This document shows, one piece after another, positions 1,827-64,000 of a DNA stretch of 64,000 bases. The notes beneath the pieces were generated by a model. That model was given only the letters and a program-made list of their open reading frames with translations. It did not search any database and was not told the origin of the DNA. Each line of letters starts with the position of its first letter. The stretch's first letter is position 1. The translations under genes were made by a program, and so were the position numbers. Source of the DNA: Arenicola marina (taxonomy: Eukaryota > Annelida > Polychaeta > Arenicolidae); the NCBI GenBank assembly GCA_964019135.1, contig OZ025255.1, positions 124,001 to 188,000 on the forward strand. Direction: 5' to 3'.

Positions 1827-4800
1827 GTGTTCCGCCGGGTGAAGGCGGGGATGTTCCGGCGGGTGAAGGCGGGGGTGTGCCGCCGGGTGAAGGCGGGGAT
1901 GTTCCGCCGGGTGAAGGCGGGGATGTTCCGGCGGGTGAAGGCGGGGGTGTTCCGCCGGGTGAAGGCGGGGATGTTCCGCCGGGTAAAGGCGGGGGTGTTC
2001 CGCCGGGTGAAGGCGGGGATGTTCCACCGGGTGAAGGCGGGGATGTTCCGGCGGTTGAAGGCGGGGGTGTTCCGCCGGGTGAAAGCGGGGATGTTCCGGC
2101 GGGTGAAGGCGGGGATGTTCCGCCGGGTGAAGGCGGGGATGTTCCGGCGGGTGAAGGCGGGGATGTTCCGCCGGGTGAAGGCGGGGGTGTTCCGCCGGGT
2201 GAAGGCGGGGATGTTCCGCCGGGTGAAGGCGGGGATGTTCCACCGGGTGAAGGCGGGGATGTTCAGCTGGGTTAAGGCGGGAGTGTTCCGCCGGGTGAAG
2301 GCGGGGATGTTCCGCCGGGTGAAGGGGGGGATGTTCCGGCGGGTGAAGGCGGGGGTTTTCCGCCGGGTGAAGGCGGGGGTGTTCCGCCGGGTGAAGGCGG
2401 GGATGTTCCGCCGGGTGAAGGCGGGGATGTTCCGCCGGGTGAAGGCGGGGATGTTCCGGCGGGTGAAGGCGGGGGTGTTCCGCCGGGTGATAGCGGGGGT
2501 GTTCCGCCGGGTGAAGGCGGGGATGTTCCGCCGGGTAAAGGCGGGGATGTTCCGGCGGGTGAAGGCGGGGATCTTCCGCCGGGTGAAGGCGGGGATGTTC
2601 CGCCGGGTGAAGGCGGGGATGTTCCGCCGGGTGAAGGCGGGGATGTTCCGCCGGGTAAAGGCGGGGGTGTTCCGCCGGGTGAAGGCGGGGATGTTCCGCC
2701 GGGTGAAGGCGGGGATGTTCCGCCGGGTGAAGGCGGGGATGTTCCGCCGGGTGAAGGCGGGGGTGTTCCGCCGGGTGAAGGCGGGGATTTTCCGCCGGGT
2801 AAAGGCGGGGGTATTCCGCCGGGTGAAGGCGGGGATGTTCCGCCGGGTGAAGGCGGGGATGTTCCGGCGGGTGAAGGCGGGGATGTTCCGCCGGGTGAAG
2901 GCGGGGATGTTTCGCCGGGTGAAAGCGGGGATGTTCCGCCGGGTGAAGGCGGGGATGTTCCGCCGGGTGAAAGCGGGGATGTTCCGGCGGGTGAAGGCGG
3001 GGATGTTCCGCCGGGTGAAGGCGGGGATGTTCCGGCGGGTGAAGGCGGGGGTGTTCCGCCGGGTGAAGGCGGGGGTGTTCCGCCGGGTGAAGGCGGGGAT
3101 GTTCCGCCGGGTGAAGGCGGGGATGTTCCACCGGGTGAAGGCGGGGATGTTCAGCTGGGTTAAGGCGGGAGTGTTCCGCCGGGTGAAGGCGGGGATGTTC
3201 CGCCGGGTGAAGGGGGGGATGTTCCGGCGGGTGAAGGCGGGGGTTTTCCGCCGGGTGAAGGCGGGGGTGTACCGCCGGGTGAAGGCGGGGATGTTCCGCC
3301 GGGTGAAGGTGGGGATGTTCCGCCGGGAGAAGGCGGGGATGTTCCGGCGGGTGAAGGCGGGGGTGTTCCGCCGGGTGATAGCGGGGGTGTTCCGCCGGGT
3401 GAAGGCGGGGATGTTCCGCCGGGTAAAGGCGGGGATGTTCCGGCGGGTGAAGGCGGGGAGGTTCCTCCGGGTGAAGGCGGGGATGTTCCGCCGGGTGAAG
3501 GCGGGGATGTTCCGGCCTTGTGAAGGCGGGGATGTTCCGCCGGGTGAAGGCGGGGATGTTCCGCCGGGTGAAGGCGGGGATGTTCCGGCCTTGTGAAGGC
3601 GGGGATGTTCCGCCGGTTGAAGGCGGGGATGTTCCGCCGGGTGAAGGCGGGGATGTTCCGGCGGGTGAAGGCGGGGGTGTTCCGCCGGGTGAAGGCGGGG
3701 ATGTTCCGAAGGAAAAAGGCGGGGGTGTTCCGCCGGGTGAAGGCGGGGATGTTCCGCCGGGTGAAGGCGGGGGTGTTCCGCCGGGTGAAGGCGGGGGTGT
3801 TCCGCCGGGTGAAGGCGGGGATGTCCCGCCGGGTGAAGGCGGGGATGTTCAGGCGGGTGAAGGCGGGGGTGTTCCGCCGGGTAAAGGCGGGGAGGTTCCT
3901 CCGGGTGAAGGCGGGGATGTTCCGCCGGGTAAAGGCGGGGATGTTCCGCCGGGTGAAGGCGGGGATGTTCCGCCGGGTGAAGGCGGGGATGTTCCGGCCT
4001 TGTGAAGGCGGGGATGTTCCGCCGGGTGAAGGCGGGGATGTTCCGCCGGGTGAAGGCGGGGATGTTCCGGCCTTGTGAAGGCGGGGATGTTCCGCCGGTT
4101 GAAGGCGGGGATGTTCCGCCGGGTGAAGGCGGGGATGTTCCGGCGGGTGAAGGCGGGGGTGTTCCGCCGGGTGAAGGCGGGGATGTTCCGAAGGAAAAAG
4201 GCGGGGGTGTTCCGCCGGGTGAAGGCGGGGATGTTCCGCCGGGTGAAGGCGGGGGTGTTCCGCCGGGTGAAGGCGGGGGTGTTCCGCCGGGTGAAGGCGG
4301 GGATGTCCCGCCGGGTGAAGGCGGGGATGTTCAGGCGGGTGAAGGCGGGGGTGTTCCGCCGGGTAAAGGCGGGGAGGTTCCTCCGGGTGAAGGCGGGGAT
4401 GTTCCGCCGGGTAAAGGCGGGGATGTTCCGCCGGGTGAAGGCGGGGGTGTTCCGCCGGGTGAAGGCGGGGTGTTCCGCCGGGTGAAGGCGGGGATGTTCC
4501 GGCGGGTGAAGGCGGGGGTGTGCCGCCGGGTGAAGGCGGGGATGTTCCGCCGGGTGAAGGCGGGGATGTTCCGGCGGGTGAAGGCGGGGGTGTTCCGCCG
4601 GGTGAAGGCGGGGATGTTCCGCCGGGTAAAGGCGGGGGTGTTCCGCCGGGTGAAGGCGGGGATGTTCCACCGGGTGAAGGCGGGGATGTTCCGGCGGGTG
4701 AAGGCGGGGGTGTTCCGCCGGGTGAAAGCGGGGATGTTCCGGCGGGTGAAGGCGGGGATGTTCCGCCGGGTGAAGGCGGGGATGTTCCGGCGGGTGAAGG

Positions 4801-7275
4801 CGGGGATGTTCCGCCGGGTGAAGGCGGGGGTGTTCCGCCGGGTGAAGGCGGGGATGTTCCGCCGGGTGAAGGCGGGGATGTTCCACCGGGTGAAGGCGGG
4901 GATGTTCAGCTGGGTTAAGGCGGGAGTGTTCCGCCGGGTGAAGGCGGGGATGTTCCGCCGGGTGAAGGGGGGGATGTTCCGGCGGGTGAAGGCGGGGGTT
5001 TTCCGCCGGGTGAAGGCGGGGGTGTTCCGCCGGGTGAAGGCGGGGATGTTCCGCCGGGTGAAGGCGGGGATGTTCCGCCGGGTGAAGGCGGGGATGTTCC
5101 GGCGGGTGAAGGCGGGGGTGTTCCGCCGGGTGATAGCGGGGGTGTTCCGCCCGGTGAAGGCGGGGATGTTCCGCCGGGTAAAGGCGGGGATGTTCCGGCG
5201 GGTGAAGGCGGGGATCTTCCGCCGGGTGAAGGCGGGGATGTTCCGCCGGGTGAAGGCGGGGATGTTCCGCCGGGTGAAGGCGGGGATGTTCCGCCGGGTA
5301 AAGGCGGGGGTGTTCCGCCGGGTGAAGGCGGGGATGTTCCGCCGGGTGAAGGCGGGGATGTTCCGCCGGGTGAAGGCGGGGATGTTCCGGCGGGTGAAGG
5401 CGGGGGTGTTCCGCCGGGTGAAGGCGGGGATGTTCCGCCGGGTAAAGGCGGGGGTATTCCGCCGGGTGAAGGCGGGGATGTTCCGCCGGGTGAAGGCGGG
5501 GATGTTCCGGCGGGTGAAGGCGGGGATGTTCCGCCGGGTGAAGGCGGGGATGTTCCGCCGGGTGAAGGCGGGGGTGTTCCGCCGGGTGAAAGCGGGGATG
5601 TTCCGGCGGGTGAAGGCGGGGATGTTCCGCCGGGTGAAGGCGGGGATGTTCCGGCGGGTGAAGGCGGGGGTGTTCCGCCGGGTGAAGGCGGGGGTGTTCC
5701 GCCGGGTGAAGGCGGGGATGTTCCGCCGGGTGAAGGCGGGGATGTTCCACCGGGTGAAGGCGGGGATGTTCAGCTGGGTTAAGGCGGGAGTGTTCCGCCG
5801 GGTGAAGGCGGGGATGTTCCGCCGGGTGAAGGGGGGGATGTTCCGGCGGGTGAAGGCGGGGGTTTTCCGCCGGGTGAAGGCGGGGGTGTACCGCCGGGTG
5901 AAGGCGGGGATGTTCCGCCGGGTGAAGGCGGGGATGTTCCGCCGGGTGAAGGCGGGGATGTTCCGGCGGGTGAAGGCGGGGGTGTTCCGCCGGGTGATAG
6001 CGGGGGTGTTCCGCCGGGTGAAGGCGGGGATGTTCCGCCGGGTAAAGGCGGGGATGTTCCGGCGGGTGAAGGCGGGGATCTTCCGCCGGGTGAAGGCGGG
6101 GATGTTCCGCCGGGTAAAGGCGGGGGTGTTCCGCCGGGTGAAGGCGGGGATGTTCCGCCGGGTGAAGGCGGGGATGTTCCGCCGGGTGAAGGCGGGGATG
6201 TTCCGGCGGGTGAAGGCGGGGGTGTTCCGCCGGGTGAAGGCGGGGATGTCCCGCCGGGTGAAGGCGGGGATGTTCAGGCGGGTGAAGGCGGGGGTGTTCC
6301 GCCGGGTAAAGGCGGGGAGGTTCCTCCGGGTGAAGGCGGGGATGTTCCGCCGGGTAAAGGCGGGGATGTTCCGCCGGGTGAAGGCGGGGGTGTTCCGCCG
6401 GGTGAAGGCGGGGTGTTCCGCCGGGTGAAGGCGGGGATGTTCCGGCGGGTGAAGGCGGGGGTGTGCCGCCGGGTGAAGGCGGGGATGTTCCGCCGGGTGA
6501 AGGCGGGGATGTTCCGGCGGGTGAAGGCGGGGGTGTTCCGCCGGGTGAAGGCGGGGATGTTCCGCCGGGTAAAGGCGGGGGTGTTCCGCCGGGTGAAGGC
6601 GGGGATGTTCCGCCGGGTGAAGGCGGGGATGTTCCGCCGGGTGAAGGCGGGGATGTTCCACCGGGTGAAGGCGGGGATGTTCAGCTGGGTTAAGGCGGGA
6701 GTGTTCCGCCGGGTGAAGGCGGGGATGTTCCGCCGGGTGAAGGGGGGGATGTTCCGGCTTGTGAAGGCGGGGGTTTTCCGCCGGGTGAAGGCGGGGGTGT
6801 TCCGCCGGGTGAAGGCGGGGATGTTCCGCCGGGTGAAGGCGGGGATGTTCCGCCGGGTGAAGGCGGGGATGTTCCGGCGGGTGAAGGCGGGGGTGTTCCG
6901 CCGGGTGATAGCGGGGGTGTTCCGCCGGGTGAAGGCGGGGATGTTCCGCCGGGTAAAGGCGGGGATGTTCCGGCGGGTGAAGGCGGGGATCTTCCGCCGG
7001 GTGAAGGCGGGGATGTTCCGCCGGGTGAAGGCGGGGATGTTCCGCCGGGTGAAGGCGGGGATGTTCCGCCGGGTAAAGGCGGGGGTGTTCCGCCGGATGA
7101 AGGCGGGGATGTTCCGCCGGGTGAAGGCGGGGATGTTCCGCCGGGTGAAGGCGGGGATGTTCCGGCGGGTGAAGGCGGGGGTGTTCCGCCGGGTAAAGGC
7201 GGGGATGTTCCGCCGGGTAAAGGCGGGGGTATTCCGCCGGGTGAAGGCGGGGATGTTCCGCCGGGTGAAGGCGGG
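1827..7275 (+). repeat. Type I higher-order repeats, first block
   Basis: A recurring order of marker units defines this family. A 23-base unit (GCGGGGTGTTCC) is followed by a GTGTGCCGCC unit, CCACCGGG units, the CAGCTG unit with GTTAAGG, a GAAGGGGGGGATG unit, a GGGGGTTTTCC unit, a GTGATAGCGG unit, GATCTTCC and often GGGGTATTCC. GTGTGCC starts lie near 1,875, 4,518 and 6,461, giving copies about 2.64 kb and 1.94 kb long. CAGCTG units lie near 2,263, 3,152, 4,904, 5,771 and 6,680, so each longer copy contains two half-copies about 870-890 bases apart. The order is read directly; calling it a higher-order repeat is standard satellite terminology. Confidence 0.85.
3516..4445 (+). repeat. Tandem duplication of about 482 bp carrying 25-bp units
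   Basis: The segment starting at 3,516 is repeated starting at 3,998, an offset of 482 bases (20 units plus two bases). The two extra bases come from two 25-base units in which CCGGCGGGTG is replaced by CCGGCCTTGTG, at 3,516 and 3,589 in the first copy and 3,998 and 4,071 in the second. The same order of a CCGGTTGAAGG unit, a CCGAAGGAAAAAGG unit, GATGTCCCGCC, GATGTTCAGGCGGG and GGAGGTTCCTCC follows in both. The copies diverge from about 4,446. Only three other 25-base units of this type were found, at 13,232, 13,257 and 24,383. Confidence 0.85.
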
Positions 7276-9744
7276 ATGTTCCGCCGGGTGAAGGCGGGGA
7301 TGTTCCGGCGGGTGAAGGCGGGGGTGTTCCGCCGGGTGAAGGCGGGGGTGTTCCGCCGGGTGAAGGCGGGGATGTTCCGCCGGGTGAAGGCGAGGATGTT
7401 TCGCCGGGTGAAGGCGGGGATGTTCCGCCGGGTGAAGGCGGGGATGTTCCGGCGGGTGAAGGCGGGGGTGTTCCGCCGGGTGATGGCGGGGGTGTTCCGC
7501 CGGGTGAAGGCGGGGATGTTCCGCCGGGTAAAGGCGGGGATGTTCCGGCGGGTGAAGGCGGGGATGTTCCGCCGGGTGAGGGCGGGGATGTTCCGCCGGG
7601 TGAAGGCGGGGATGTTCCGCCGGGTGAAGGCGGGGATGTTCCGCCGGGTAAAGGCGGGGGTGTTCCGCCGGGTGACGGCGGGGATGTTCCGCCGGGTGAA
7701 GGCGGGGATGTTCCGGCGGGTGAAGGCGGGGGTGGTCCGCCGGATGAAGGCGGGGATGTTCCGCCGGGTAAAGGCGGGGGTGTTCCGCCGGGTGAAGGCG
7801 GGGATGTTCCGCCGGGTGAAGGCGGGGATGTTCCGGCGGGTAAAGGCGGGGGTGTTCCGCCGGGTGAAGGCGGGGATGTTCCGCCGGGTGAAGGCGGGGA
7901 TGTTCCGCCGGGTGAAGGCGGGGATGTTCCGCCGGGTGAAGGCGGGGATGTTCCGCCGGGTAAAGGCGGGGGTGTTCCGCCGGGTGAAGGCGGGGATATT
8001 CCGCCGGGTGAAGGCGGGGATGTTCCGCTGGGTGAAGGCGGGGATGTTCCGGCGGGTGAAGGCGGGGGTGTTCCGCCGGGTGAAGGCGGGGGTGTTCCGC
8101 CGGGTGAAGGCGGGGATATTCCGCCGGGTGAAGGCGGGGATATTCCGCCGGGTGAAGGCGGGGATGTTCCGCTGGGTGAAGGCGGGGATGTTCCGGCGGG
8201 TGAAGGCGGGGGTGTTCCGCCGGGTGAAGGCGGGGATGTTCCGGCGGGTGAAGGCGGGAGTGTTCCCCCGGGTGAAGGCGGGGATGTTCCGCCGGGTGAA
8301 GGCGGGGATGTTCCGCCGGGTGAAGGCGGGTTGTTCAGCCGGGTTAAGGCGGGGGTGGTCCGCCGGATGAAGGCGGGGATGTTCCGCCGGGTGAAGGCGG
8401 GGATGTTCCGCCGGGTGAAGGCGGGGATGTTCCGGCGGGTGAAGGCGGGGGTGTTCCGCCGGGTGATAGCGGGGGTGTTCCGCCGGGTGAAGGCGGGGAT
8501 GTTCCGCCGGGTAAAGGCGGGGATGTTCCGGCGGGTGAAGGCGGGGATCTTCCGCCGGGTGAAGGCGGGGATGTTCCGCCGGGTGAAGGCGGGGATGTTC
8601 CGCCGGGTGAAGGCGGGGATGTTCCGCCGGGTAAAGGCGGGGGTGTTCCGCCGGATGAAGGCGGGGATGTTCCGCCGGGTGAAGGCGGGGATGTTCCGCC
8701 GGGTGAAGGCGGGGATGTTCCGGCGGGTGAAGGCGGGGGTGTTCCGCCGGGTGAAGGCGGGGATGTTCCGCCGGGTAGAGGCGGGGGTATTCCGCCGGGT
8801 GAAGGCGGGGATGTTCCGCCGGGTGAAGGCGGGATGTTCCGCCGGGTGAAGGCGGGGATGTTCCGGCGGGTGAAGGCGGGGGTGTTCCGCCGGGTGAAGG
8901 CGGGGGTGTTCCGCCGGGTGAAGGCGGGGATGTTCCGCCGGGTGAAGGCGAGGATGTTTCGCCGGGTGAAGGCGGGGATGTTCCGCCGGGTGAAGGCGGG
9001 GATGTTCCGGCGGGTGAAGGCGGGGGTGTTCCGCCGGGTGATGGCGGGGGTGTTCCGCCGGGTGAAGGCGGGGATGTTCCGCCGGGTAAAGGCGGGGATG
9101 TTCCGGCGGGTGAAGGCGGGGATGTTCCGCCGGGTGAGGGCGGGGATGTTCCGCCGGGTGAAGGCGGGGATGTTCCGCCGGGTGAAGGCGGGGATGTTCC
9201 GCCGGGTAAAGGCGGGGGTGTTCCGCCGGGTGACGGCGGGGATGTTCCGCCGGGTGAAGGCGGGGATGTTCCGGCGGGTGAAGGCGGGGGTGGTCCGCCG
9301 GATGAAGGCGGGGATGTTCCGCCGGGTAAAGGCGGGGGTGTTCCGCCGGGTGAAGGCGGGGATGTTCCGCCGGGTGAAGGCGGGGATGTTCCGGCGGGTA
9401 AAGGCGGGGGTGTTCCGCCGGGTGAAGGCGGGGATGTTCCGCCGGGTGAAGGCGGGGATGTTCCGCCGGGTCAAGGCGGGGATGTTCCGCCGGGTGAAGG
9501 CGGGGATGTTCCGCCGGGTAAAGGCGGGGGCGTTCCGCCGGGTGAAGGCGGGGATATTCCGCCGGGTGAAGGCGGGGATGTTCCGCTGGGTGAAGGCGGG
9601 GATGTTCCGGCGGGTGAAGGCGGGGGTGTTCCGCCGGGTGAAGGCGGGGATGTTCCGGCGGGTGAAGGCGGGAGTGTTCCCCCGGGTGAAGGCGGGGATG
9701 TTCCGGCGGGTGAAGGCGGGGATGTTCCGCCGGGTGAAGGCGGG
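7276..9744 (+). repeat. Type II higher-order repeats, first block
   Basis: The block opens with a 23-base unit reading GCGGGATGTTCC and carries the type II markers GCGAGGATGTTTCGCC (near 7,392 and 8,950), GTGATGGCGG (near 7,483 and 9,041), GTGAGGGCGG and GTGACGGCGG. The second copy starts 1,558 bases after the first (8,834 against 7,276; 65 units less two bases). Each copy ends with an odd unit, GCGGGTTGTTCAGCC, at about 8,328 and 9,742. Between them, at about 8,465, lies a short type I piece with a GTGATAGCGG unit and a GATCTTCC unit, so the block is a mosaic of both families. Confidence 0.8.
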
Positions 9745-11230
9745 TTGTTCAGCCGGGTTAAGGCGGGGGTGTTCCGCCGGGTAAAGGCAGGGGTGTTCCG
9801 CCGGGTGAAGGCGGGGGTGTTCCGCCGGGTGAAGGCGGGGATGTTCCGCCGGGTGAAGGCGGGGATGTTCCGGCGGGTGAAGGCGGGGGTGTTCCGCCGG
9901 GTGAAGGCGGGGATGTTCCGCCGGGTAAAGGCGGGGGTGTTCCGCCGGGTGAAGGCGGGGATGTTCCGCCGGGTGAAGGCGGGGATGTTCCGGCGGATGA
10001 AGGCGGGGGTGTTCCGCCGGGTGAAGGCGGGGATGCTCCGGCGGGTGAAGGCGGGGATGTTCCGCCGGGTGAAGGCGGGGATGTTCCGGCGGGTGAAGGC
10101 GGGGATGTTCCGCCGGGTGAAGGCCGGGGTGTTCCGCCGGGTGAAGGCGGGGATGTTCCGCCGGGTGAAGGCGGGGTGTTCCGGCGGGTGAAGGCGGGGG
10201 TGTTCCGCCGGGTGAAGGCGGGGATGTTCCGCCGGGTGAAGGCGGGGATGTTCCGCCGGGTGAAGGCGGGGATGTTCCGGCGGGTGAAGGCGGGGGTGTT
10301 CCGCCGGGTGAAGGCGGGGGTGTTCCGCCGGGTGAAGGCGGGGATGTTCCGCCGGGTAAAGGCGGGGATGTTCCGGCGGGTGAAGGCGGGGGTGTTCCGC
10401 CGGGTGAAGGGGGGGATGTTCCGCCGGGTGAAGGCGGGGATGTTCCGCCGGGTGAAGGCGGGGATGTTCCGCCGGGTAAAGGCGGGGGTGTTCCGCCGGG
10501 TGAAGGCGGGGATGTTCCGCCGGGTGAAGGCGGGGATGTTCCGCCGGGTGAAGGCGGGGATGTTCCGGCGGGTGAAGGCGGGGGTGTTCCGCCGGGTGAA
10601 GGCGGGGATGTTCCGCCGGGTAAAGGCGGGGGTGTTCCGCCGGGTGAAGGCGGGGATGTTCCGGCGGGTGAAGGCGGGGATGTTCCGCCGGGTGAAGGCG
10701 GGGATGTTCCGCCGGGTGAAGGCGGGGATGTTCCGCCGGGTGAAGGCGGGGATGTTCCGGCGGGTGAAGGCGGGAGTGTTCCGCCGGGTGAAGGCGGGGA
10801 TGTTCCGCCGGGTAAAGGCGGGGATGTTCCGGCGGGTGAAGGCGGGGATCTTCCGCCGGGTGAAGGCGGGGATGTTCCGCCGGGTGAAGGCGGGGATGTT
10901 CCGCCGGGTGAAGGCGGGGATGTTCCGCCGGGTAAAGGCGGGGGTGTTCCGCCGGGTGAAGGCGGGGATGTTCCGCCGGGTGAAGGCGGGGATGTTCCGC
11001 CGGGTGAAGGCGGGGATGTTCCGGCGGGTGAAGGCGGGGGTGTTCCGCCGGGTGAAGGCGGGGATGTCCCGCCGGGTGAAGGCGGGGATGTTCAGGCGGG
11101 TGAAGGCGGGGGTGTTCCGCCGGGTTAAGGCGGGGAGGTTCCTCCGGGTGAAGGCGGGGATGTTCCGCCGGGTAAAGGCGGGGATGTTCCGCCGGGTGAA
11201 GGCGGGGGTGTTCCGCCGGGTGAAGGCGGG
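9745..11230 (+). repeat. Sister copy of the left segment joined to type I tail
   Basis: From about 9,749 the sequence follows the order seen at 463-1,500, offset by 9,212 bases (384 units less four). It includes the GAAGGCCGGGGTG unit near 10,122 and the 23-base unit near 10,173. Past about 10,780 it switches to a type I tail with GATCTTCC, GATGTCCCGCC, GATGTTCAGGCGGG and GGAGGTTCCTCC units. It ends at the 23-base unit at 11,231 that starts the next type I block. Confidence 0.75.
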
Positions 11231-14200
11231 GTGTTCCGCCGGGTGAAGGCGGGGATGTTCCGGCGGGTGAAGGCGGGGGTGTGCCGCCGGGTGAAGGCGG
11301 GGATGTTCCGCCGGGTGAAGGCGGGGATGTTCCGGCGGGTGAAGGCGGGGGTGTTCCGCCGGGTGAAGGCGGGGATGTTCCGCCGGGTAAAGGCGGGGGT
11401 GTTCCGCCGGGTGAAGGCGGGGATGTTCCACCGGGTGAAGGCGGGGATGTTCCGGCGGGTGAAGGCGGGGGTGTTCCGCCGGGTGAAAGCGGGGATGTTC
11501 CGGCGGGTGAAGGCGGGGATGTTCCGCCGGGTGAAGGCGGGGATGTTCCGCCGGGTGAAGGCGGGGATGTTCCGGCGGGTGAAGGCGGGGATGTTCCGCC
11601 GGGTGAAGGCGGGGGTGTTCCGCCGGGTGAAGGCGGGGATGTTCCGCCGGGTGAAGGCGGGGATGTTCCACCGGGTGAAGGCGGGGATGTTCAGCTGGGT
11701 TAAGGCGGGAGTGTTCCGCCGGGTGAAGGCGGGGATGTTCCGCCGGGTGAAGGGGGGGATGTTCCGGCGGGTGAAGGCGGGGGTTTTCCGCCGGGTGAAG
11801 GCGGGGGTGTTCCGCCGGGTGAAGGCGGGGATGTTCCGCCGGGTGAAGGCGGGGATGTTCCGCCGGGTGAAGGCGGGGATGTTCCGGCGGGTGAAGGCGG
11901 GGGTGTTCCGCCGGGTGATAGCGGGGGTGTTCCGCCGGGTGAAGGCGGGGATGTTCCGCCGGGTAAAGGCGGGGATGTTCCGGCGGGTGAAGGCGGGGAT
12001 CTTCCGCCGGGTGAAGGCGGGGATCTTCCGCCGGGTGAAGGCGGGGGTGTTCCGCCGGGTGAAGGCGGGGATGTTCCGCCGGGTAAAGGCGGGGGTGTTC
12101 CGCCGGGTGAAGGCGGGGATGTTCCGCCGGGTGAAGGCGGGGATGTTCCGCCGGGTGAAGGCGGGGATGTTCCGGCGGGTGAAGGCGGGGGTGTTCCGCC
12201 GGGTGAAGGCGGGGATGTTCCGCCGGGTAAAGGCGGGGGTATTCCGCCGGGTGAAGGCGGGGATGTTCCGCCGGGTGAAGGCGGGGATGTTCCGGCGGGT
12301 GAAGGCGGGGATGTTCCGCCGGGTGAAGGCGGGGATGTTCCGCCGGGTGAAGGCGGGGATGTTCCGCCGGGTGAAGGCGGGGGTGTTCCGCCGGGTGAAA
12401 GCGGGGATGTTCCGGCGGGTGAAGGCGGGGATGTTCCGCCGGGTGAAGGCGGGGATGTTCCGGCGGGTGAAGGCGGGGGTGTTCCGCCGGGTGAAGGCGG
12501 GGGTGTTCCGCCGGGTGAAGGCGGGGATGTTCCGCCGGGTGAAGGCGGGGATGTTCCACCGGGTGAAGGCGGGGATGTTCAGCTGGGTTAAGGCGGGAGT
12601 GTTCCGCCGGGTGAAGGCGGGGATGTTCCGCCGGGTGAAGGGGGGGATGTTCCGGCGGGTGAAGGCGGGGGTTTTCCGCCGGGTGAAGGCGGGGGTGTAC
12701 CGCCGGGTGAAGGCGGGGATGTTCCGCCGGGCGAAGGCGGGGATGTTCCGCCGGGTGAAGGCGGGGATGTTCCGGCGGGTGAAGGCGGGGGTGTTCCGCC
12801 GGGTGATAGCGGGGGTGTTCCGCCGGGTGAAGGCGGGGATGTTCCGCCGGGTAAAGGCGGGGATGTTCCGGCGGGTGAAGGCGGGGATCTTCCGCCGGGT
12901 GAAGGCGGGGATGTTCCGCCGGGTGAAGGCGGGGGTGTTCCGCCGGGTGAAGGCGGGGGTGTTCCGCCGGGTGAAGGCGGGGATGTTCCGCCGGGTGAAG
13001 GCGGGGATGTTCCGCCGGGTGAAGGCGGGGATGTTCCGGCGGGTGAAGGCGGGGGTGTTCCGCCGGGTGAAGGCGGGGGTCTTCCGCCGGGTGAAGGCGG
13101 GGATGTTCCGCCGGGTGAAGGCGGGGATGTTCCGCCGGGTGAAGGCGGGGATGTTCCGCCGGGTGAAGGCGGGGAGGTTCCTCCGGGTGAAGGCGGGGAT
13201 GTTCCGCCGGGTGAAGGCGGGGATGTTCCGGCCTTGTGAAGGCGGGGATGTTCCGGCCTTGTGAAGGCGGGGGTGTTCCGCCGGGTGAAGGCGGGGGTGT
13301 TCCGCCGGTTGAAGGCGGGGATGTTCCGCCGGGTGAAGGCGGGGATGTTCCGGCGGGTGAAGGCGGGGGTGTTCCGCCGGGTGAAGGCGGGGATGTTCCG
13401 AAGGAAAAAGGCGGGGGTGTTCCGCCGGGTGAAGGCGGGGATGTTCCGCCGGGTGAAGGCGGGGGTGTTCCGCCGGGTGAAGGGGGGGGTGTTCCGCCGG
13501 GTGAAGGCGGGGATGTCCCGCCGGGTGAAGGCGGGGATGTTCAGGCGGGTGAAGGCGGGGGTGTTCCGCCGGGTAAAGGCGGGGAGGTTCCTCCGGGTGA
13601 AGGCGGGGATGTTCCACCGGGTAAAGGCGGGGATGTTCCGCCGGGTGAAGGCGGGGGTGTTCCGCCGGGTGAAGGCGGGGTGTTCCGCCTGGTGAAGGCG
13701 GGGATGTTCCGGCGGATGAAGGCGGGGGTGTGCCGCCGGGTGAAGGCGGGGATGTTCCGCCGGGTGAAGGCGGGGATGTTCCGGCGGGTGAAGGCGGGGG
13801 TGTTCCGCCGGGTGAAGGCGGGGATGTTCCGCCGGGTAAAGGCGGGGGTGTTCCGCCGGGTGAAGGCGGGGATGTTCCACCGGGTGAAGGCGGGGATGTT
13901 CCGGCGGGTGAAGGCGGGGGTGTTCCGCCGGGTGAAAGCGGGGATGTTCCGGCGGGTGAAGGCGGGGATGTTTCGCCGGGTGAAGGCGGGGATGTTCCGG
14001 CGGGTGAAGGCGGGGATGTTCCGCCGGGTGAAGGCGGGGGTGTTCCGCCGGGTGAAGGCGGGGATGTTCCGCCGGGTGAAGGCGGGGATGTTCCACCGGG
14101 TGAAGGCGGGGATGTTCAGCTGGGTTAAGGCGGGAGTGTTCCGAGGGGTGAAGGCGGGGATGTTCCGCCGGGTGAAGGGGGGGATGTTCCGGCGGGTGAA

Positions 14201-53240: not shown

Positions 53241-56200
53241 TTAAGGCGGGGGTGTTCCGCCGGGTGAAGGCGGGGATGTTCCGCCGGGTGAAGGCGAGGG
53301 TGTTCCGGCGGGTGAAGGCCGAGGTGTTCCGCCGGGTGAAGGCGGGTGTGTTCCGCCGGGTGAAGGCGGGGGTCTTCCGCAGGGTGAAGGCGGGGATGTT
53401 CCGCCGGGTGAAGGCGGGGATGTTCCGGCGGGTGAAGGCGGGGGTGTTCCGCCGGGTAAAGGCGGGGATGTTCCGCCGGGTGAAGGCGGGGGTGTTCCGC
53501 CGGGTGAAGGCGGGGGTGTTCCGCCGGGTGAGGGCGGGGATGTTCCGGCGGGTGAAGGCGGGAGTGTTCCGCCGGGTGAAGGCGGGGATGTTCCGCCGGG
53601 TGAAGGCGGGGATGTTCCGCCGGGTGAAGGCGGGGATGTTCAGCCGGGTTAACGCGGGGGTGTTCCGCCGGGTGAAGGCGGGGATGTTCCGCCGGGTGAA
53701 GGCGCGGATGTTCCGGCGGGTGAAGGCGGGGGTGTTCCGCCGGGTGAAGGCGGGGGTGTTCCGCCGGGTGAAGGCGGGGGTGTTCCGCCGGGTGAAGGCG
53801 GGGATGTTCCGGCGGGTAAAGGCAGGGGTGTTCAGCCGGGTTAAGGCGGGGGTGTTCCGCCGGGTGAAGGCGGGGATGTTCCGCCGGGTGAAGGCGGGGA
53901 TGTTCTGGCGGGTGAAGGCGGGGGTGTTCCGCCGGGTGAAGGCGGGGATGTTCCGCCGGGTAAAGGAGGGGGTGTTCCGCCGGGTGAAGGCGGGGATGTT
54001 CCGCCGGGTGAAGGCGGGGATGTTCCGGCGGGTGAAGGCGGGGGTGTTCCGCCGGGTGAAGGCGGGGATGTTCCGGCGGGTGAAGGCGGGGATGTTCCGC
54101 CGGGTGAAGGCGGGGATGTTCCGGCGGGTGAAGGCGGGGGTGTTCCGCCGGGTGAAGGCGGGGATGTTCCGGCGGGTGAAGGGCGGGGGTGTTCAGCCGG
54201 GTTAAGGCGGGGGTGTTCCGCCGGGTGAAGGCGGGGATGTTCCGCCGGGTGAAGGCGGGGATGTTCCGGCGGGTGAAGGCGGGCGTGTTCCGCCGGGTGA
54301 AGGCGGGGGTGTTCCGCCGGGTGACGGCGGGGATGTTCCGCCGGGTGAAGGCGGGTATGTTCCGCCGGGTGAAGGCGGGGATGTTCCGGCGGGTGAAGGC
54401 GGGGGTGTTCCGCCGGGTGAAGGCGGGGATGTTCCGCCGGGTGAAGGCGGGGATGTTCCGGCGGGTGAAGGCCGAGGTGTTCCGCCGGGTGAAGGCGGGT
54501 GTGTTCCGCCGGGTGAAGGCGGGGGTCTTCCGCAGGGTGAAGGCGGGGATGTTCCGCCGGGTGAAGGCGGGGATGTTCCGGCGGGTGAAGGCGGGGGTGT
54601 TCCGCCGGGTAAAGGCGGGGATGTTCCGCCGGGTGAAGGCGGGGGTGTTCCGCCGGGTGAAGGCGGGGGTGTTCCGCCGGGTGAAGGCGGGGATGTTCCG
54701 GCGGGTGAAGGCGGGAGTGTTCCGCCGGGTGAAGGCGGGGATGTTCCGCCGGGTGAAGGCGGGGATGTTCCGCCGGGTGAAGGCGGGGATGTTCAGCCGG
54801 GTTAAGGCGGGGGTGTTCCGCCGGGTGAAGGCGGGGATGTTCCGCCGGGTGAAGGCGGGGATTTTCCGGCGGGTGAAGGCGGGGGTGTTCCGCCGGGTGA
54901 AGGCGGGGGTGTTCCGCCGGGTGAAGGCGGGGGTGTTCCGCCGGGTAAAGGCGGGGATGTTCCGGCGGGTGAAGGCGGGGATGTTCCGCCGGGTGAAGGC
55001 GGGGATGTTCCGCCGGGTGAAGGCGGGGATGTTCCGCCGGGTGAAGGCGGGGATGTTCCGGCGGGTAAAGGCAGGGGTGTTCAGCCGGGTTAAGGCGGGG
55101 GTGTTCCGCCGGGTGAAGGCGGGGATGTTCCGCCGGGTGAAGGCGGGGATGTTCTGGCGGGTGAAGGCGGGGGTGTTCCGCCGGGTGAAGGCGGGGATGT
55201 TCCGCCGGGTAAAGGAGGGGGTGTTCCGCCGGGTGAAGGCGGGGATGTTCCGCGGGTGAAGGCGGGGATGTTCCGGCGGGTGAAGGCGGGGGTGTTCCGC
55301 CGGGTGAAGGCGGGGATGTTCCGGCGGGTGAAGGCGGGGATGTTCCGCCGGGTGAAGGCGGGGATGTTCCGGCGGGTGAAGGCGGGGGTGTTCCGCCGGG
55401 TGAAGGCGGGGATGTTCCGGCGGGTGAAGGCGGGGATGTTCCGCCGGGTGAAGGCGGGGGTGTTCAGCCGGGTTAAGGCGGGGGTGTTCCGCCGGGTGAA
55501 GGCGGGGATGTTCCGCCGGGTGAAGGCGGGGATGTTCCGGCGGGTGAAGGCGGGGGTGTTCCGCCGGGTGAAGGCGGGGGTGTTCCGCCGGGTGAAGGCG
55601 GGGGTGTTCCGCCGGGTAAAGGCGGGGATGTTCCGGCGGGTGAAGGCGGGGATGTTCCGCCGGGTGAAGGCGGGGATGTTCCGCCGGGTGAAGGCGGGGA
55701 TGTTCCGCCGGGTGAAGGCGGGGATGTTCCGGCGGGTAAAGGCAGGGGTGTTCCGCCGGGTGAAGGCGGGGGTGTTCCGCCGGGTGAAAGCGGGGATGTT
55801 CCGCCGGGTGAAGGCGGGGATGTTCTGGCGGGTGAAGGCGGGGGTGTTCCGCCGGGTGAAGGCGGGGATGTTCCGCCGGGTAAAGGAGGGGGTGTTCCGC
55901 CGGGTGAAGGCGGGGATGTTCCGCCGGGTGAAGGCGGGGATGTTCCGGCGGGTGAAGGCGGGGGTGTTCCGCCGGGTGAAGGCGGGGATGTTCCGGCGGG
56001 TGAAGGCGGGGATGTTCCGCCGGGTGAAGGCGGGGATGTTCCGGCGGGTGAAGGCGGGGATGTTCCGCCGGGTGAAGGCGGGGGTGTTCCGCCGGGTGAA
56101 GGCGGGGATGTTCCGCCGGGTGAAGGCGGGGATGTTCCACCGGGTGAAGGCGGGGATGTTCAGCTGGGTTAAGGCGGGAGTGTTCCGCCGGGTGAAGGCG

Positions 56201-56922
56201 GGGATGTTCCGCCGGGTGAAGTCGGGGATGTTCCGGCGGGTGAAGGCGGGGGTGTTCCGCCGGGTGAAGGCGGGGATGTTCCGCCGGGTGAAGGCGGGGA
56301 TGTTCCGCCGGGTGAAGGCGGGGATGTTCCGCCGGGTGAAGGCGGGGATGTTCCGCCGGGTAAAGGCGGGAGTGTTCCGCCGGGTGAAGGCGGGGATGTT
56401 CCGCCGGGTGAAGGCGGGGATGTTCCGCCGGGTGAAGGCGGGGATGTTCCGGCGGGTGAAGGCGGGGGTGTTCCGCCGGGTGAAGGCGGGGATGTTCCGC
56501 CGGGTAAAGGCGGGGGTGTTCCGCCGGGTGAAGGCGGGGATGTTCCGCCGGGTGAAGGCGGGGATGTTCCGGCGGGTGAAGGCGGGGATGTTCCGCCGGG
56601 TGAAGGCGGGGATGTTCCGCCGGGTGAAGGCGGGGATGTTCCGCCGGGTAAAGGCGGGGATGTTCCGGCGGGTGAAGGCGGGCGTGTTCCGCCGGGTGAA
56701 GGCTGGCATGTTCCGCCGGGTGAAGGCGGGGGTGTTCCGCCGGGTGAAGGCGGAGGTGTTCCGCCGGGTGAAGGCGGGGATGTTCCGGCGGGTGAAGGCG
56801 GGGGTGTTCCGCCGGGTGAAGGCGGGGATGTTCCGCCGGGTGAAGGCGGGGATGTTCCGCCGGGTGAAGGCGGGGGTGTTCAGCCGGGTTAAGGCGGGGG
56901 TGTTCCGCCGGGTGAAGGCGGG
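53241..56922 (+). repeat. Subfamily with GTTCTGGCGG and AAAGGAGGGGG units
   Basis: Units containing GTTCTGGCGG followed three units later by GGGTAAAGGAGGGGG occur at 53,903, 55,152 and 55,823, and again at 59,562 and 60,210, but nowhere in the left half of the window. CAGCCG units are closely packed (about 53,231, 53,640, 53,831, 54,193, 54,793, 55,080 and 55,462), giving short steps of 190-670 bases. At 53,640 the marker carries an extra change, GGGTTAACGCGG, and a 25-base unit (GAAGGGCGGGGG) lies near 54,178. A CAGCTG unit appears near 56,159. Confidence 0.8.
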
Positions 56923-59900
56923 ATGTTCCGCCGGGTGAAGGCGGGGATGTTCCGGCGGGTGAAGGCGGGGGTGTTCCGCCGGGTGAAGGCGGGGGTGTTC
57001 CGCCGGGTGAAGGCGGGGATGTTCCGCCGGGTGAAGGCGAGGATGTTTCGCCGGGTGAAGGCGGGGATGTTCCGCCGGGTGAAGGCGGGGATGTTCCGGC
57101 GGGTGAAGGCGGGGGTGTTCCGCCGGGTGATGGCGGGGGTGTTCCGCCGGGTGAAGGCGGGGATGTTCCGCCGGGTGAAGGCGGGGATGTTCCGCCGGGT
57201 AAAGGCGGGGGTGTTCCGCCGGGTGAAGGCGGGGATGTTCCGCCGGGTGAAGGTGGGGATGTTCCGGCGGGTGAAGGCGGGGGTGTTCCGCCGGGTGAAG
57301 GCGGGGATGTTCCGCCGGGTGAAGGCGGGGGTGTTCAGCCGGGTTAAGGCGGGGGTGTTCCGCCGGGTGAAGGCGGGATGTTCCGCCGGGTGAAGGCGGG
57401 GATGTTCCGGCGGGTGAAGGCGGGGGTGTTCCGCCGGGTGAAGGCGGGGGTGTTCCGCCGGGTGAAGGCGGGGATGTTCCGCCGGGTGAAGGCGAGGATG
57501 TTTCGCCGGGTGAAGGCGGGGATGTTCCGCCGGGTGAAGGCGGGGATGTTCCGGCGGCTGAAGGCGGGGGTGTTCCGCCGGGTGATGGCGGGGGTGTTCC
57601 GCCGGGTGAAGGCGGGGATGTTCCGCCGGGTGAAGGCGGGGATGTTCCGCCGGGTAAAGGCGGGGGTGTTCCGCCGGGTGAAGGCGGGGATGTTCCGCCG
57701 GGTGAAGGTGGGGATGTTCCGGCGGGTGAAGGCGGGGGTGTTCCGCCGGGTGAAGGCGGGGATGTCCCGCCGGGTGAAGGCGGGGATGTTCCGGCGGGTG
57801 AAGGCGGGGGTGTTCCGCCGGGTGATGGCGGGGGTGTTCCGCCGGGTGAAGGCGGGGATGTTCCGCCGGTAAAGGCGGGGATGTTCCGGCGGGTGAAGGC
57901 GGGGATGTTCCGCCGGGTGAAGGCGGGGATGTTCCGGCGGGTGAAGGCGGGGGTGTTCCGCCGGGTGAAGGCGGGGATGTTCCGCCGGGTGAAGGCGGGA
58001 TGTTCCGCCGGGTGAAGGCGGGGATGTTCCGGCGGGTGAAGGCGGGGGTGTTCCGCCGGGTGAAGGCGGGGATGTTCCGCCGGGTGAAGGCGGGGATGTT
58101 CCGCCGGGTGAAGGCGGGGGTGTTCAGCCGGGTTAAGGCGGGGGTGTTCCGCCGGGTGAAGGCGGGGATGTTCCGCCGGGTGAAGGCGGGGATGTTCCGG
58201 CGGGTGAAGGCGGGCGTGTTCCGCCGGGTGAAGGCGGGGGTGTTCCGCCGGGTGACGGCGGGGATGTTCCGCCGGGTGAAGGCGGGGATGTTCCGCCGGG
58301 TGAAGGCGGGGATGTTCCGCCGGGTGAAGGCGGGGATGTCCCGCCGGGTGAAGGCGGGGATGTTCCGGCGGGTGAAGGCGGGGGTGTGCCGCCGGGTAAA
58401 GGCGGGGAGGTTCCTCCGGGTGAAGGCGGGGATGTTCCGCCGGGTAAAGGCGGGGATGTTCCGCCGGGTGAAGGCGGAGATGTTCCGCCGGGTAAAGGCG
58501 GGGGTGTTCCGCCGGGTGAAGGCGGGGAGGTTCCTCCGGGTGAAGGCGGCGGTGTTCCGCCGGGTGAAGGCGGGGGTGTTCCGCCGGGTGAAGGCGGGGA
58601 TGTTCCGGCGGGTGAAGGCGGGGATGTTCCGGCGGGTGAAGGCGGGGGTGTTCCGCCGGGTGAAGGCGCTGGTGTTCCGCCGGGTGAAGGCGGGGATGTT
58701 CCGCCGGGTGAAGGCGGGGATGTTCCGCCGGGTGAAGGCGGGGATGTTCCGGCGGGTGAAGGCGGGCGTGTTCCGCCGGGTGAAGGCGGGGGTGTTCCGC
58801 CGGGTGACGGCGGGGATGTTCCGCCGGGTGAAGGCGGGGATGTTCCGCCGGGTGAAGGCGGGGATGTTCCGCCGGGTGAAGGCGGGGATGTCCCGCCGGG
58901 TGAAGGCGGGGATGTTCCGGCGGGTGAAGGCGGGGGTGTTCCGCCGGGTGATGGCGGGGGTGTTCCGCCGGGTGAAGGCGGGGATGTTCCGCCGGTAAAG
59001 GCGGGGATGTTCCGGCGGGTGAAGGCGGGGATGTTCCGCCGGGTGAAGGCGGGGATGTTCCGGCGGGTGAAGGCGGGGGTGTTCCGCCGGGTGAAGGCGG
59101 GGATGTTCCGGCGGGTGAAGGCGGGAGTGTTCCGCCGGGTGAAGGCGGGGATGTTCCGCCGGGTGAAGGCGGGGATGTTCCGCCGGGTGAAGGCGGGGAT
59201 GTTCAGCCGGGTTAAGGCGGGGGTGTTCCGCCGGGTGAAGGCGGGGATGTTCCGCCGGGTGAAGGCGGGGATGTTCCGGCGGGTGAAGGCGGGGGTGTTC
59301 CGCCGGGTGAAGGCGGGGGTGTTCCGCCGGGTGAAGGCGGGGGTGTTCCGCCGGGTAAAGGCGGGGATGTTCCGGCGGGTGAAGGCGGGGATGTTCCGCC
59401 GGGTGAAGGCGGGGATGTTCCGCCGGGTGAAGGCGGGGATGTTCCGCCGGGTGAAGGCGGGGATGTTCCGGCGGGTAAAGGCAGGGGTGTTCAGCCGGGT
59501 TAAGGCGGGGGTGTTCCGCCGGGTGAAGGCGGGGATGTTCCGCCGGGTGAAGGCGGGGATGTTCTGGCGGGTGAAGGCGGGGGTGTTCCGCCGGGTGAAG
59601 GCGGGGATGTTCCGCCGGGTAAAGGAGGGGGTGTTCCGCCGGGTGAAGGCGGGGATGTTCCGCCGGGTGAAGGCGGGGATGTTCCGGCGGGTGAAGGCGG
59701 GGGTGTTCCGCCGGGTGAAGGCGGGGATGTTCCGGCGGGTGAAGGCGGGGATGTTCCGCCGGGTGAAGGCGGGGATGTTCCGGCGGGTGAAGGCGGGGGT
59801 GTTCCGCCGGGTGAAGGCGGGGATGTTCCGGCGGGTGAAGGCGGGGATGTTCCGCCGGGTGAAGGCGGGGGTGTTCCGCCGGGTTAAGGCGGGGGTGTTC

Positions 59901-62900
59901 CGCCGGGTGAAGGCGGGGATGTTCCGCCGGGTGAAGGCGGGGATGTTCCGCCGGGTGAAGGCGGGGGTGTTCCGCCGGGTGAAGGCGGGGGTGTTCCGCC
60001 GGGTGAAGGCGGGGGTGTTCCGCCGGGTAAAGGCGGGGATGTTCCGGCGGGTGAAGGCGGGGATGTTCCGCCGGGTGAAGGCGGGGATGTTCCGCCGGGT
60101 GAAGGCGGGGATGTTCCGCCGGGTGAAGGCGGGGATGTTCCGGCGGGTAAAGGCAGGGGTGTTCCGCCGGGTGAAGGCGGGGATGTTCCGCCGGGTGAAG
60201 GCGGGGATGTTCTGGCGGGTGAAGGCGGGGGTGTTCCGCCGGGTGAAGGCGGGGATGTTCCGCCGGGTAAAGGAGGGGGTGTTCCGCCGGGTGAAGGCGG
60301 GGATGTTCCGCCGGGTGAAGGCGGGGATGTTCCGGCGGGTGAAGACGGGGGTGTTCCGCCGGGTGAAGGCGGGGATGTTCCGGCGGGTGAAGGCGGGGAT
60401 GTTCCGCCGGGTGAAGGCGGGGATGTTCCGGCGGGTGAAGGCGGGGATGTTCCGCCGGGTGAAGGCGGGGGTGTTCCGCCGGGTGAAGGCGGGGATGTTC
60501 CGCCGGGTGAAGGCGGGGATGTTCCACCGGGTGAAGGCGGGGATGTTCAGCTGGGTTAAGGCGGGAGTGTTCCGCCGGGTGAAGGCGGGGATGTTCCGCC
60601 GGGTAAAGGCGGGGGTGTTCCGCCGGGTGAAGGCGGGGATGTTCCGCCGGGTGAAGGTGGGGATGTTCCGGCGGGTGAAGGCGGGGGTGTTCCGCCGGGT
60701 GCAGGCGGGGATGTTCCGCCGGGTAAAGGCGGGGGTGTTCCGCCGGGTGAAGGCGGGATGTTCCGCCGGGTGAAGGCGGGGATGTTCCGGCGGGTGAAGG
60801 CGGGGGTGTTCCGCCGGGTGAAGGCGGGGATGTTCCGCCGGGTGAAGGCGGGGATGTTCCGCCGGGTGAAGGCGGGGGTGTTCAGCCGGGTTAAGGCGGG
60901 GGTGTTCCGCCGGGTGAAGGCGGGGATGTTCCGCCGGGTGAAGGCGGGGATGTTCCGGCGGGTGAAGGCGGGCGTGTTCCGCCGGGTGAAGGCGGGGGTG
61001 TTCCGCCGGGTGACGGCGGGGATGTTCCGCCGGGTGAAGGCGGGGATGTTCCGCCGGGTGAAGGCGGGGATGTTCCGCCGGGTGAAGGCGGGGATGTCCC
61101 GCCGGGTGAAGGCGGGGATGTTCCGGCGGGTGAAGGCGGGGGTGTTCCGCCGGGTGATGGCGGGGGTGTTCCGCCGGGTGAAGGCGGGGATGTTCCGCCG
61201 GTAAAGGCGGGGATGTTCCGGCGGGTGAAGGCGCGGATGTTCCGCCGGGTGAAGGCGGGGATGTTCCGGCGGGTGAAGGCGGGGGTGTTCCGCCGGGTGA
61301 AGGCGGGGATGTTCCGCCGGGTGAAGGCGGGATGTTCCGCCGGGTGAAGGCGGGGATGTTCCGGCGGGTGAAGGCGGGGGTGTTCCGCCGGGTGAAGGCG
61401 GGGATGTTCCGCCGGGTGAAGGCGGGGATGTTCCGCCGGGTGAAGGCGGGGGTGTTCAGCCGGGTTAAGGCGGGGGTGTTCCGCCGGGTGAAGGCGGGGA
61501 TGTTCCGCCGGGTGAAGGCGGGGATGTTCCGGCGGGTGAAGGCGGGCGTGTTCCGCCGGGTGAAGGCGGGGGTGTTCCGCCGGGTGACGGCGGGGATGTT
61601 CCGCCGGGTGAAGGCGGGGATGTTCCGCCGGGTGAAGGCGGGGATGTTCCGCCGGGTGAAGGCGGGGATGTCCCGCCGGGTGAAGGCGGGGATGTTCCGG
61701 CGGGTGAAGGCGGGGGTGTGCCGCCGGGTAAAGGCGGGGAGGTTCCTCCGGGTGAAGGCGGGGATGTTCCGCCGGGTAAAGGCGGGGATGTTCCGCCGGG
61801 TGAAGGCGGAGATGTTCCGCCGGGTAAAGGCGGGGGTGTTCCGCCGGGTGAAGGCGGGGAGGTTCCTCCGGGTGAAGGCGGCGGTGTTCCGCCGGGTGAA
61901 GGCGGGGGTGTTCCGCCGGGTGAAGGCGGGGATGTTCCGGCGGGTGAAGGCGGGGATGTTCCGGCGGGTGAAGGCGGGGGTGTTCCGCCGGGTGAAGGCG
62001 CTGGTGTTCCGCCGGGTGAAGGCGGGGATGTTCCGCCGGGTGAAGGCGGGGATGTTCCGCCGGGTGAAGGCGGGGATGTTCCGGCGGGTGAAGGCGGGCG
62101 TGTTCCGCCGGGTGAAGGCGGGGGTGTTCCGCCGGGTGACGGCGGGGATGTTCCGCCGGGTGAAGGCGGGGATGTTCCGCCGGGTGAAGGCGGGGATGTT
62201 CCGCCGGGTGAAGGCGGGGATGTCCCGCCGGGTGAAGGCGGGGATGTTCCGGCGGGTGAAGGCGGGGGTGTTCCGCCGGGTGATGGCGGGGGTGTTCCGC
62301 CGGGTGAAGGCGGGGATGTTCCGCCGGTAAAGGCGGGGATGTTCCGGCGGGTGAAGGCGGGGATGTTCCGCCGGGTGAAGGCGGGGATGTTCCGGCGGGT
62401 GAAGGCGGGGGTGTTCCGCCGGGTGAAGGCGGGGATGTTCCGCCGGGTGAAGGCGGGATGTTCCGCCGGGTGAAGGCGGGGATGTTCCGGCGGGTGAAGG
62501 CGGGGGTGTTCCGCCGGGTGAAGGCGGGGATGTTCCGCCGGGTGAAGGCGGGGATGTTCCGCCGGGTGAAGGCGGGGGTGTTCAGCCGGGTTAAGGCGGG
62601 GATGTTCCGCCGGGTGAAGGCGGGGATGTTCCGGCGGGTGAAGGCGGGCGTGTTCCGCCGGGTGAAGGCGGGGGTGTTCCGCCGGGTGACGGCGGGGATG
62701 TTCCGCCGGGTGAAGGCGGGGATGTTCCGCCGGGTGAAGGCGGGGATGTTCCGCCGGGTGAAGGCGGGGATGTCCCGCCGGGTGAAGGCGGGGATGTTCC
62801 GCCGGGTGAAGGCGGGGGTGTTCAGCCGGGTTAAGGCGGGGGTGTTCCGCCGGGTGAAGGCGGGGATGTTCCGCCGGGTGAAGGCGGGGATTTTCCGGCG

Positions 62901-64000
62901 GGTGAAGGCGGGCGTGTTCCGCCGGGTGAAGGCGGGGGTGTTCCGCCGGGTGACGGCGGGGATGTTCCGCCGGGTGAAGGCGGGGATGTTCCGCCGGGTG
63001 AAGGCGGGGATGTTCCGCCGGGTGAAGGCGGGGATGTCCCGCCGGGTGAAGGCGGGGATGTTCCGGCGGGTGAAGGCGGGGGTGTTCCGCCGGGTGATGG
63101 CGGGGGTGTTCCGCCGGGTGAAGGCGGGGATGTTCCGCCGGTAAAGGCGGGGATGTTCCGGCGGTTGAAGGCGCGGATGTTCCGCCGGGTGAAGGCGGGG
63201 ATGTTCCGCCGGGTGAAGGCGGGGATGTTCCGCCGGGTGAAGGCGGGGGTGTTCAGCCGGGTTAAGGCGGGGGTGTTCCGCCGGGTGAAGGCGGGGATGT
63301 TCCGCCGGGTGAAGGCGGGGATGTTCCGGCGGGTGAAGGCGGGCGTGTTCCGCCGGGTGAAGGCGGGGGTGTTCCGCCGGGTGACGGCGGGGATGTTCCG
63401 CCGGGTGAAGGCGGGGATGTTCCGCCGGGTGAAGGCGGGGATGTTCCGCCGGGTGAAGGCGGGGATGTCCCGCCGGGTGAAGGCGGGGATGTTCCGGCGG
63501 GTGAAGGCGGGGGTGTGCCGCCGGGTAAAGGCGGGGAGGTTCCTCCGGGTGAAGGCGGGGATGTTCCGCCGGGTAAAGGCGGGGATGTTCCGCCGGGTGA
63601 AGGCGGAGATGTTCCGCCGGGTAAAGGCGGGGGTGTTCCGCCGGGTGAAGGCGGGGAGGTTCCTCCGGGTGAAGGCGGCGGTGTTCCGCCGGGTGAAGGC
63701 GGGGGTGTTCCGCCGGGTGAAGGCGGGGATGTTCCGGCGGGTGAAGGCGGGGATGTTCCGGCGGGTGAAGGCGGGGGTGTTCCGCCGGGTGAAGGCGCTG
63801 GTGTTCCGCCGGGTGAAGGCGGGGATGTTCCGCCGGGTGAAGGCGGGGATGTTCCGCCGGGTGAAGGCGGGGATGTTCCGGCGGGTGAAGGCGGGCGTGT
63901 TCCGCCGGGTGAAGGCGGGGGTGTTCCGCCGGGTGACGGCGGGGATGTTCCGCCGGGTGAAGGCGGGGATGTTCCGCCGGGTGAAGGCGGGGATGTTCCG
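56923..64000 (+). repeat. Right-end type II block with 455-bp and 3,332-bp offset copies
   Basis: Openings at 56,923 and 57,378 are 455 bases apart (19 units less one). Segment 57,910-59,108 recurs at about 61,242-62,440, offset 3,332 bases (139 units less four), and appears identical over most of its length. It includes GTGTGCCGCC, GGAGGTTCCTCC, GGCGGAGATG, GGCGGCGGTG and a unique GGCGCTGGTG unit (58,665 and 61,997). A third partial copy with the same GGCGCTGGTG unit at 63,794 runs off the window end. Shortened GCCGGTAAAGG units lie near 57,866, 58,991, 61,197, 62,325 and 63,138. GTTCTGGCGG units at 59,562 and 60,210 and one CAGCTG unit near 60,546 link it to the preceding block. Confidence 0.85.

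Follow-up and report, generated by a model that had tools for sequence, protein, structure and literature searches.

Nested higher-order structure in a giant GC-rich 24-bp minisatellite close to one scaffold end of the annelid Arenicola marina

The 64,000-nucleotide stretch analysed here (the window, C8:124001-188000; C8 is a scaffold of 44.4 Mb in an assembly of 867,369,267 bases and 762 contigs) is occupied from end to end by a single GC-rich 24-bp tandem array, the commonest unit of which is GGGGATGTTCCGCCGGGTGAAGGC. Position 1,827, at which a preliminary sequence-only reading had placed the start of the repeats, is arbitrary, as the array fills positions 1-64,000 and continues beyond both ends of the window, 41 kb leftward and 14 kb rightward. 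The whole array (C8:82,762-202,169; 119.4 kb) comprises 4,979 units, of which 4,870 have a length of exactly 24 bp, and contains 305 distinct unit sequences. Mean identity of the units to the consensus is 95.6%. Within the window, the GC content is 0.70-0.72, the GC skew 0.41-0.45 and the CpG observed/expected ratio 1.19. All 2,633 exact matches to an 18-mer of the unit in the genome lie inside the array, with none on the opposite strand, as do all 1,676 exact matches to a 30-mer; judged on exact matches, a criterion that leaves diverged copies outside, the 24-bp repeat is a single locus.

The array begins 83 kb from the start of the scaffold and ends at 202 kb. Its left flank consists of a few hundred bases of non-array sequence, with 39-bp and 20-bp repeats within the preceding 2.7 kb, and a 38-bp array occupies the sampled stretches from C8:5,489 to 70,000. 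On the right, about 3.3 kb of mainly other sequence is followed by a 44-bp minisatellite (from about 205.5 kb), which is more homogeneous than the 24-bp array (99% versus 92% matches). The stretch probably belongs to a worm chromosome. An exact 41-mer has no match in bacterial/archaeal or viral contigs, and a 4-kb stretch of the array has none among plasmids, these being collections not expected to hold animal repeats. A 72-base query gave no hit in its own genome with a search method that passes over simple repeats. No Rfam family matches the window or six other loci.

The 24-bp unit falls within the range of roughly 10-100 bp that defines a minisatellite, and the array has the GC richness and strand asymmetry typical of human hypervariable loci. 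Its length of 119.4 kb exceeds the average of 0.5-30 kb that the available part of a review gives for minisatellite arrays (PMC8122249), a typical range without a strict limit. In one earthworm assembly, according to the accessible text, minisatellites make up 2.65% of the genome (PMC12130307). The array is a giant, GC-rich, single-locus minisatellite of nested higher-order structure, close to the beginning of an annelid scaffold: a further case of a known repeat type that stands out for its size and setting and is unusually legible. No description of it was found among titles and abstracts of the literature searched, which is not to claim that it is absent from print. The features mapped within the window are listed in Table 1.

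Table 1. Features of the 24-bp array mapped in the window (window coordinates)
Feature	Position	Strand	Basis or remark
Part of single 24-bp array	1..64000	+	TRF, one row, 2668.5 copies, 92% matches; 2669 units
Type I domain, with type II islands inside	1800..35900	+	Unit strings, markers
Perfect adjacent duplication, 20 units	3479..4442	+	Lag scan
Type II island, two copies flanking a type I-marked stretch	7271..9742	+	Markers, shared flanking units
Type II island	21017..22500	+	Left junction like the I/II boundary at 35.9 kb; right end as in the sequence-only reading
Perfect adjacent duplication, 78 units	25666..29407	+	Exact runs, lag scan
Type II domain, several clusters within	35667..57500	+	Markers, unit strings, clustering
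Adjacent duplication, 26 units, 96% of units identical	38281..39528	+	Lag scan
Adjacent duplication, 37 units, 92% of units identical	47898..49673	+	Lag scan
Left part of youngest-looking domain, near-identical composite modules	57500..64000	+	Runs to C8:202169; unit strings, singletons
Left part of first copy, perfect tandem duplication (lag 7858 bp)	60280..64000	+	Remainder and second copy right of window

The sequence-only reading had distinguished two interleaved families of higher-order repeats by eight marker strings: type I (GTGATAGCGG, CAGCTG, GATCTTCC and GCGGGGTGTTCC), filling most of the left 31 kb, and type II (GTGATGGCGG, GCGAGGATGTTTCGCC, GTGACGGCGG and GCGGGATGTTCC), dominating the right half. 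The markers lie where it had placed them. About 22 units with GTGATAGCGG had been reported, none beyond 31.8 kb, and exactly 22 are counted, from 2,487 to 31,726, which is also the total for the whole array; GATCTTCC occurs 23 times, last at 31,809 (32 times in the whole array), and GCGGGGTGTTCC 18 times, last at 35,306. CAGCTG cannot be regarded as specific to type I, since six of its 23 copies are found at 41.7-60.5 kb. The type II strings GTGATGGCGG (22 copies in the window, 37 in the whole array), GCGAGGATGTTTCGCC (13), GTGACGGCGG (23 in the window, 54 in the whole array) and GCGGGATGTTCC (16, with one isolated copy at 23,509) also mark the small islands reported at 7.3-9.7 and 21.3-22.5 kb, which are real, with markers at 7,271-9,230 and 21,279-21,680, respectively; type I markers at 8,463 and 8,546 separate the two copies that make up the first island. 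Units of GTGATAGC in the type I domain are spaced 25 to 241 units apart, 10 of the 21 intervals being 35-38 units. With CAGCTG excluded and the window cut into 67 bins of 40 units, one type of marker predominates in 52 bins (type I in 29, type II in 23). These bins form 8 runs, as against a minimum of 13 in 10,000 shuffles. The order of markers along the array is non-random, and the objection that it might be random fails.

A division into exactly two families was not borne out. Clustering of the window gives a silhouette of 0.108 with two groups, and the value climbs to 0.282 with eight, the most that were tried; over the whole array, clusters of 50-unit bins subdivide further and further, and the left 41 kb, outside the window, forms additional clusters. 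A tree was made of 59 blocks of 600 bp from the whole array, anchored at GTGATAGCGG (22 blocks) or GTGATGGCGG (37 blocks), the remaining type II markers being left out. The type labels cluster in this tree, changing 7 times where 500 shuffles give at least 12 changes, but the two clades that the proposed families would form are absent, and mean block identity is 0.958 for I-I, 0.945 for II-II and 0.944 for I-II pairs. The array has domains, of which "two families" is too simple a description. That two distinct higher-order repeat families diverged separately and became interleaved afterwards, through insertion or gene conversion, is very improbable: the confinement of markers to domains with small islands and the clustering of labels in the tree would agree with such a history, but type II blocks resemble one another only as much as they resemble type I blocks, two groups are not preferred by the silhouette, CAGCTG is found in both halves, the left 41 kb falls into other clusters, and the I/II junction itself recurs.

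The recurrence is seen at the junctions at 21,281 and 35,931, where 15 of the 20 upstream units are identical and all 20 are within one edit (the 99.9th percentile for random pairs is 13/20), with only 6 of the next 20 units upstream being shared. The junction at 40,417 shares 10 of 20 units with each of them. The island copies at 7,273 and 8,831 agree with each other in 17 of 20 units upstream and 28 of 30 downstream; their agreement with 21,281 is 25 and 24 of 30 units downstream, respectively, and 0 of 20 upstream. The lack of upstream sharing is what separately diverged families would predict. To judge by eye from the unit strings, these islands look like the 21-kb junction with an internal deletion. 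The repeated junction (21,281 and 35,931) indicates that the interleaving of types arose at least partly by copying of a block that spans the I/II junction.

Comparison at the level of units reveals extensive block structure. A dot plot of the whole array contains 4,083 informative five-unit words, of which 2,844 recur, compared with 26 of 4,106 in one shuffle. The longest exact run of units is 328; the corresponding values are 8 for three shuffles and 9-10 for three controls from a first-order Markov process. There are 476 exact runs of at least 10 units and 29 of at least 37 units. The plot consists of nested domains, with a left edge poor in recurring words: to the left of the window, a duplicated pair at about C8:88.8-94.7 kb precedes a composite region that extends to about 124 kb, and rightward from there come the type I and type II domains and, at the right end, a domain whose modules closely resemble one another. 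Such off-diagonal blocks, together with the ordered markers, support the higher-order structure and layered expansion proposed in the sequence-only reading. A candidate collinear super-repeat of 14 kb was rejected because the match is incomplete; in one example, a comparison made without a control, 183 units could be aligned, with 136 identities and 23 gaps.

A scan over lags of 5 to 899 units, which required unit identity of at least 80% and a match above 25 bits, found 16 adjacent block duplications, with sizes from 6 to 396 units, among which the 6-unit cases may be due to chance, the scan having had no shuffle control. Five are unit-perfect (6, 20, 78, 179 and 328 units), three have 95-96% of units identical (19, 26 and 42 units), and the largest (396 units) is 85% identical. 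Unit coding detects in-register copies only, and retention of register is independently evident just from two checks at the level of bases (positions above 64,000 being window coordinates extended rightward): copies at 60,299 and 68,157 (lag 7,858 bp) are identical over 7,889 bp, and copies at 69,067 and 73,355 (lag 4,288 bp) are identical over 4,303 bp. The absence of any difference over 7,889 bp within a repeat, and the presence of gaps elsewhere on the scaffold (200 N in sampled stretch L019), could indicate that these longest perfect duplications are artefacts of assembly. Such an origin is nonetheless unlikely, as there is no N in the window or in stretches L005-L009, and it would leave the diverged duplications of the same kind unexplained.

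The organization of the array is attributed, with a probability of roughly 0.8, to growth by repeated in-register duplication and deletion of multi-unit blocks, with mutations between rounds. The unit composition, the single locus of exact matches, the nested blocks and the repeated junction are the observed parts of this model. Multi-unit blocks would have been tandemly duplicated (and deleted) again and again in the 24-bp register, the likeliest route being that misaligned sister chromatids or homologues undergo unequal exchange or template-switching repair. Point mutations would accumulate between duplication rounds, and each copied block would bring its set of variants along, so that successive rounds would leave nested higher-order repeats, and the marker families would be the descendants of whichever blocks happened to be amplified. 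We infer the recombination pathway, the temporal order of events and the neutrality of the process.

A toy neutral model of duplication and deletion (six hand-set settings, six runs each) yields mostly comparable statistics, its medians ranging over 165-2,017 runs of at least 10 units (476 observed), 7-76 runs of at least 37 units (29 observed), 123-573 variants (305 observed) and 48-300 singletons (123 observed). The median longest run, 89-189 units, does not extend to the 328 units observed; either large events were commoner or more recent than modelled, or the perfect copies are partly an artefact of assembly. With duplications from 6 to about 400 units readable in an array of some 5,000 units, and no assembly gaps where these were counted, models of minisatellite and higher-order repeat growth become testable beyond centromeres and primates.

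Variants found only once are distributed unevenly: the leftmost 250 units contain 24 and the rightmost 729 contain 1 (39 bins, Spearman -0.53), and each bin from C8:181710 rightward has 0-1 of them. Some human minisatellites show polarised mutation, and copies may likewise have been gained mainly at the right edge of this array, as the gradient of singletons and the location of every run of at least 179 units within the right 18 kb would suggest. Exact runs of 116 and 78 units lie farther left, however, and the observed correlation is matched by 3 of 60 arrays simulated under a toy neutral model with events placed uniformly, a model that overshoots the numbers of variants (median 439.5 versus 305) and singletons (200 versus 123). 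Polar growth is rather unlikely, and the polarity is suggestive only. A bolder proposal, that the array grew at its right edge by multi-kilobase duplications, such that position serves as a clock, and that the same process filled the first 5 Mb of the scaffold, at almost all the places sampled, with giant minisatellites, is speculative and improbable.

Growth by block duplication can be compared with the behaviour of several known repeats. Variant repeats are interspersed in a group of hypervariable, GC-rich minisatellites that includes MSY1, MS32 and CEB1. Human MSY1 resembles the 24-bp array in its short unit and in the arrangement of variant units in blocks, and it changes by gain, loss and switching of 1-3 units per step, starting from a donor allele of 77 units; synthesis between misaligned sister chromatids is proposed in the available part of that paper (PMC2599865). 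The present array differs from MSY1, as described there, in its 4,979 units and in its duplications of many-unit blocks. The higher-order repeats defined for TRASH (PMC10199239) are pairs of blocks with equal numbers of units that match position by position, as the blocks of this array do; the definition is a loose one, and the accessible text reveals no difference.

Alpha satellite, to which the array had been likened in the sequence-only reading, also has co-amplified multi-unit blocks, with newer blocks beside older ones, according to the parts of two papers that were available (PMC8122249, PMC9549924), and the likeness holds for growth by block duplication. It does not hold for the size of the unit or for divergence within blocks: alpha-satellite units within a higher-order repeat are about 70% identical while the blocks are up to 97-100% identical (PMC8122249, available part), whereas the 24-bp units are 95.6% identical to their consensus and do not form blocks of divergent units, and their higher-order period is irregular. 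Nor does it hold for layering on two sides. Human centromeres expand in waves, with new arrays arising inside old ones (PMC9549924, available part), whereas here the youngest-looking part is the right edge and most singletons are on the left, an apparent age gradient toward one edge. The likeness is limited to the mode of growth only. A centromeric satellite undergoing layered expansion in the style of alpha satellite could account for higher-order structure and domains of differing apparent age, but the 24-bp unit, the 119-kb length, the single locus of exact matches 83 kb from the scaffold start and the youngest-looking part at one edge make this extremely improbable.

Among other properties of the sequence, G-quadruplex motifs with short loops (1-7) are depleted on the + strand (4, compared with 307-324 in five shuffles), motifs with loops of up to 12 are enriched (1,244, compared with 555-603 in shuffles), and 20% of 25-base windows score at least 1.2 by a G4Hunter-like measure. 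Given the enrichment of long-loop motifs and the G4Hunter-like scores, G-quadruplexes may act as a weak structural trigger. The predicted folding of four two-unit sequences is unremarkable (z -0.41, -1.01, -1.37 and -1.52). Stop codons in the 64 kb number 747-971 per + strand frame and 43-60 per - strand frame, and the latter contain long open stretches (the longest 2,246 amino acids), which are taken to be a by-product of the 24-bp period; the array is probably non-coding.

The first 5,010,000 bases of the scaffold have a very high density of minisatellites with many differing units (periods of 17-72 bp among the main ones listed). Of 15 sampled 10-kb stretches outside the array (L001-L004 and L010-L020), all within the first 5.01 Mb, 13 consist of at least 82% tandem repeats, the others having 61% (L001) and 1% (L014, C8:500001-510000). 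Runs of units were examined in 16 of the stretches L001-L020 (excluding L001, L005, L014 and L019), 12 of them outside the array, with 8 unit lengths. In all 12, the longest exact run exceeds that of every one of five shuffles, weakly in L013 (5 versus 3) and L018 (6 versus 2) and strongly in L017 (39 versus 4) and L002 (37 versus 3); nested block duplication is therefore a shared trait of the minisatellites sampled on this scaffold. The sampled parts of this region are mostly other long minisatellites, and the region may prove of wider interest than the array itself. The CpG observed/expected ratio varies between arrays, from 0.24-0.44 for a 42-bp unit (L011-L013) to 1.42-1.43 for the 38-bp unit (L002-L004), with 1.19 in the window, possibly reflecting differences in methylation or age. 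The repeat-poor stretch L014 appears to be internally duplicated, in diverged form, over about 4 kb, with one pair of similar peptides at 651 and 4572 and another at 3096 and 7098.

Contig C762 (15,942 bp) of the same assembly is mitochondrial, its COX1 matches having 13 in-frame TGA codons. The gene order on the stretch that was read is nad3, trnS, nad2, cox1, trnN, cox2, trnD, atp8, trnY, trnG and the start of cox3, with the five tRNAs identified by ARAGORN in mitochondrial mode and the protein genes named by eye from their translations; we take this order to be the annelid arrangement.
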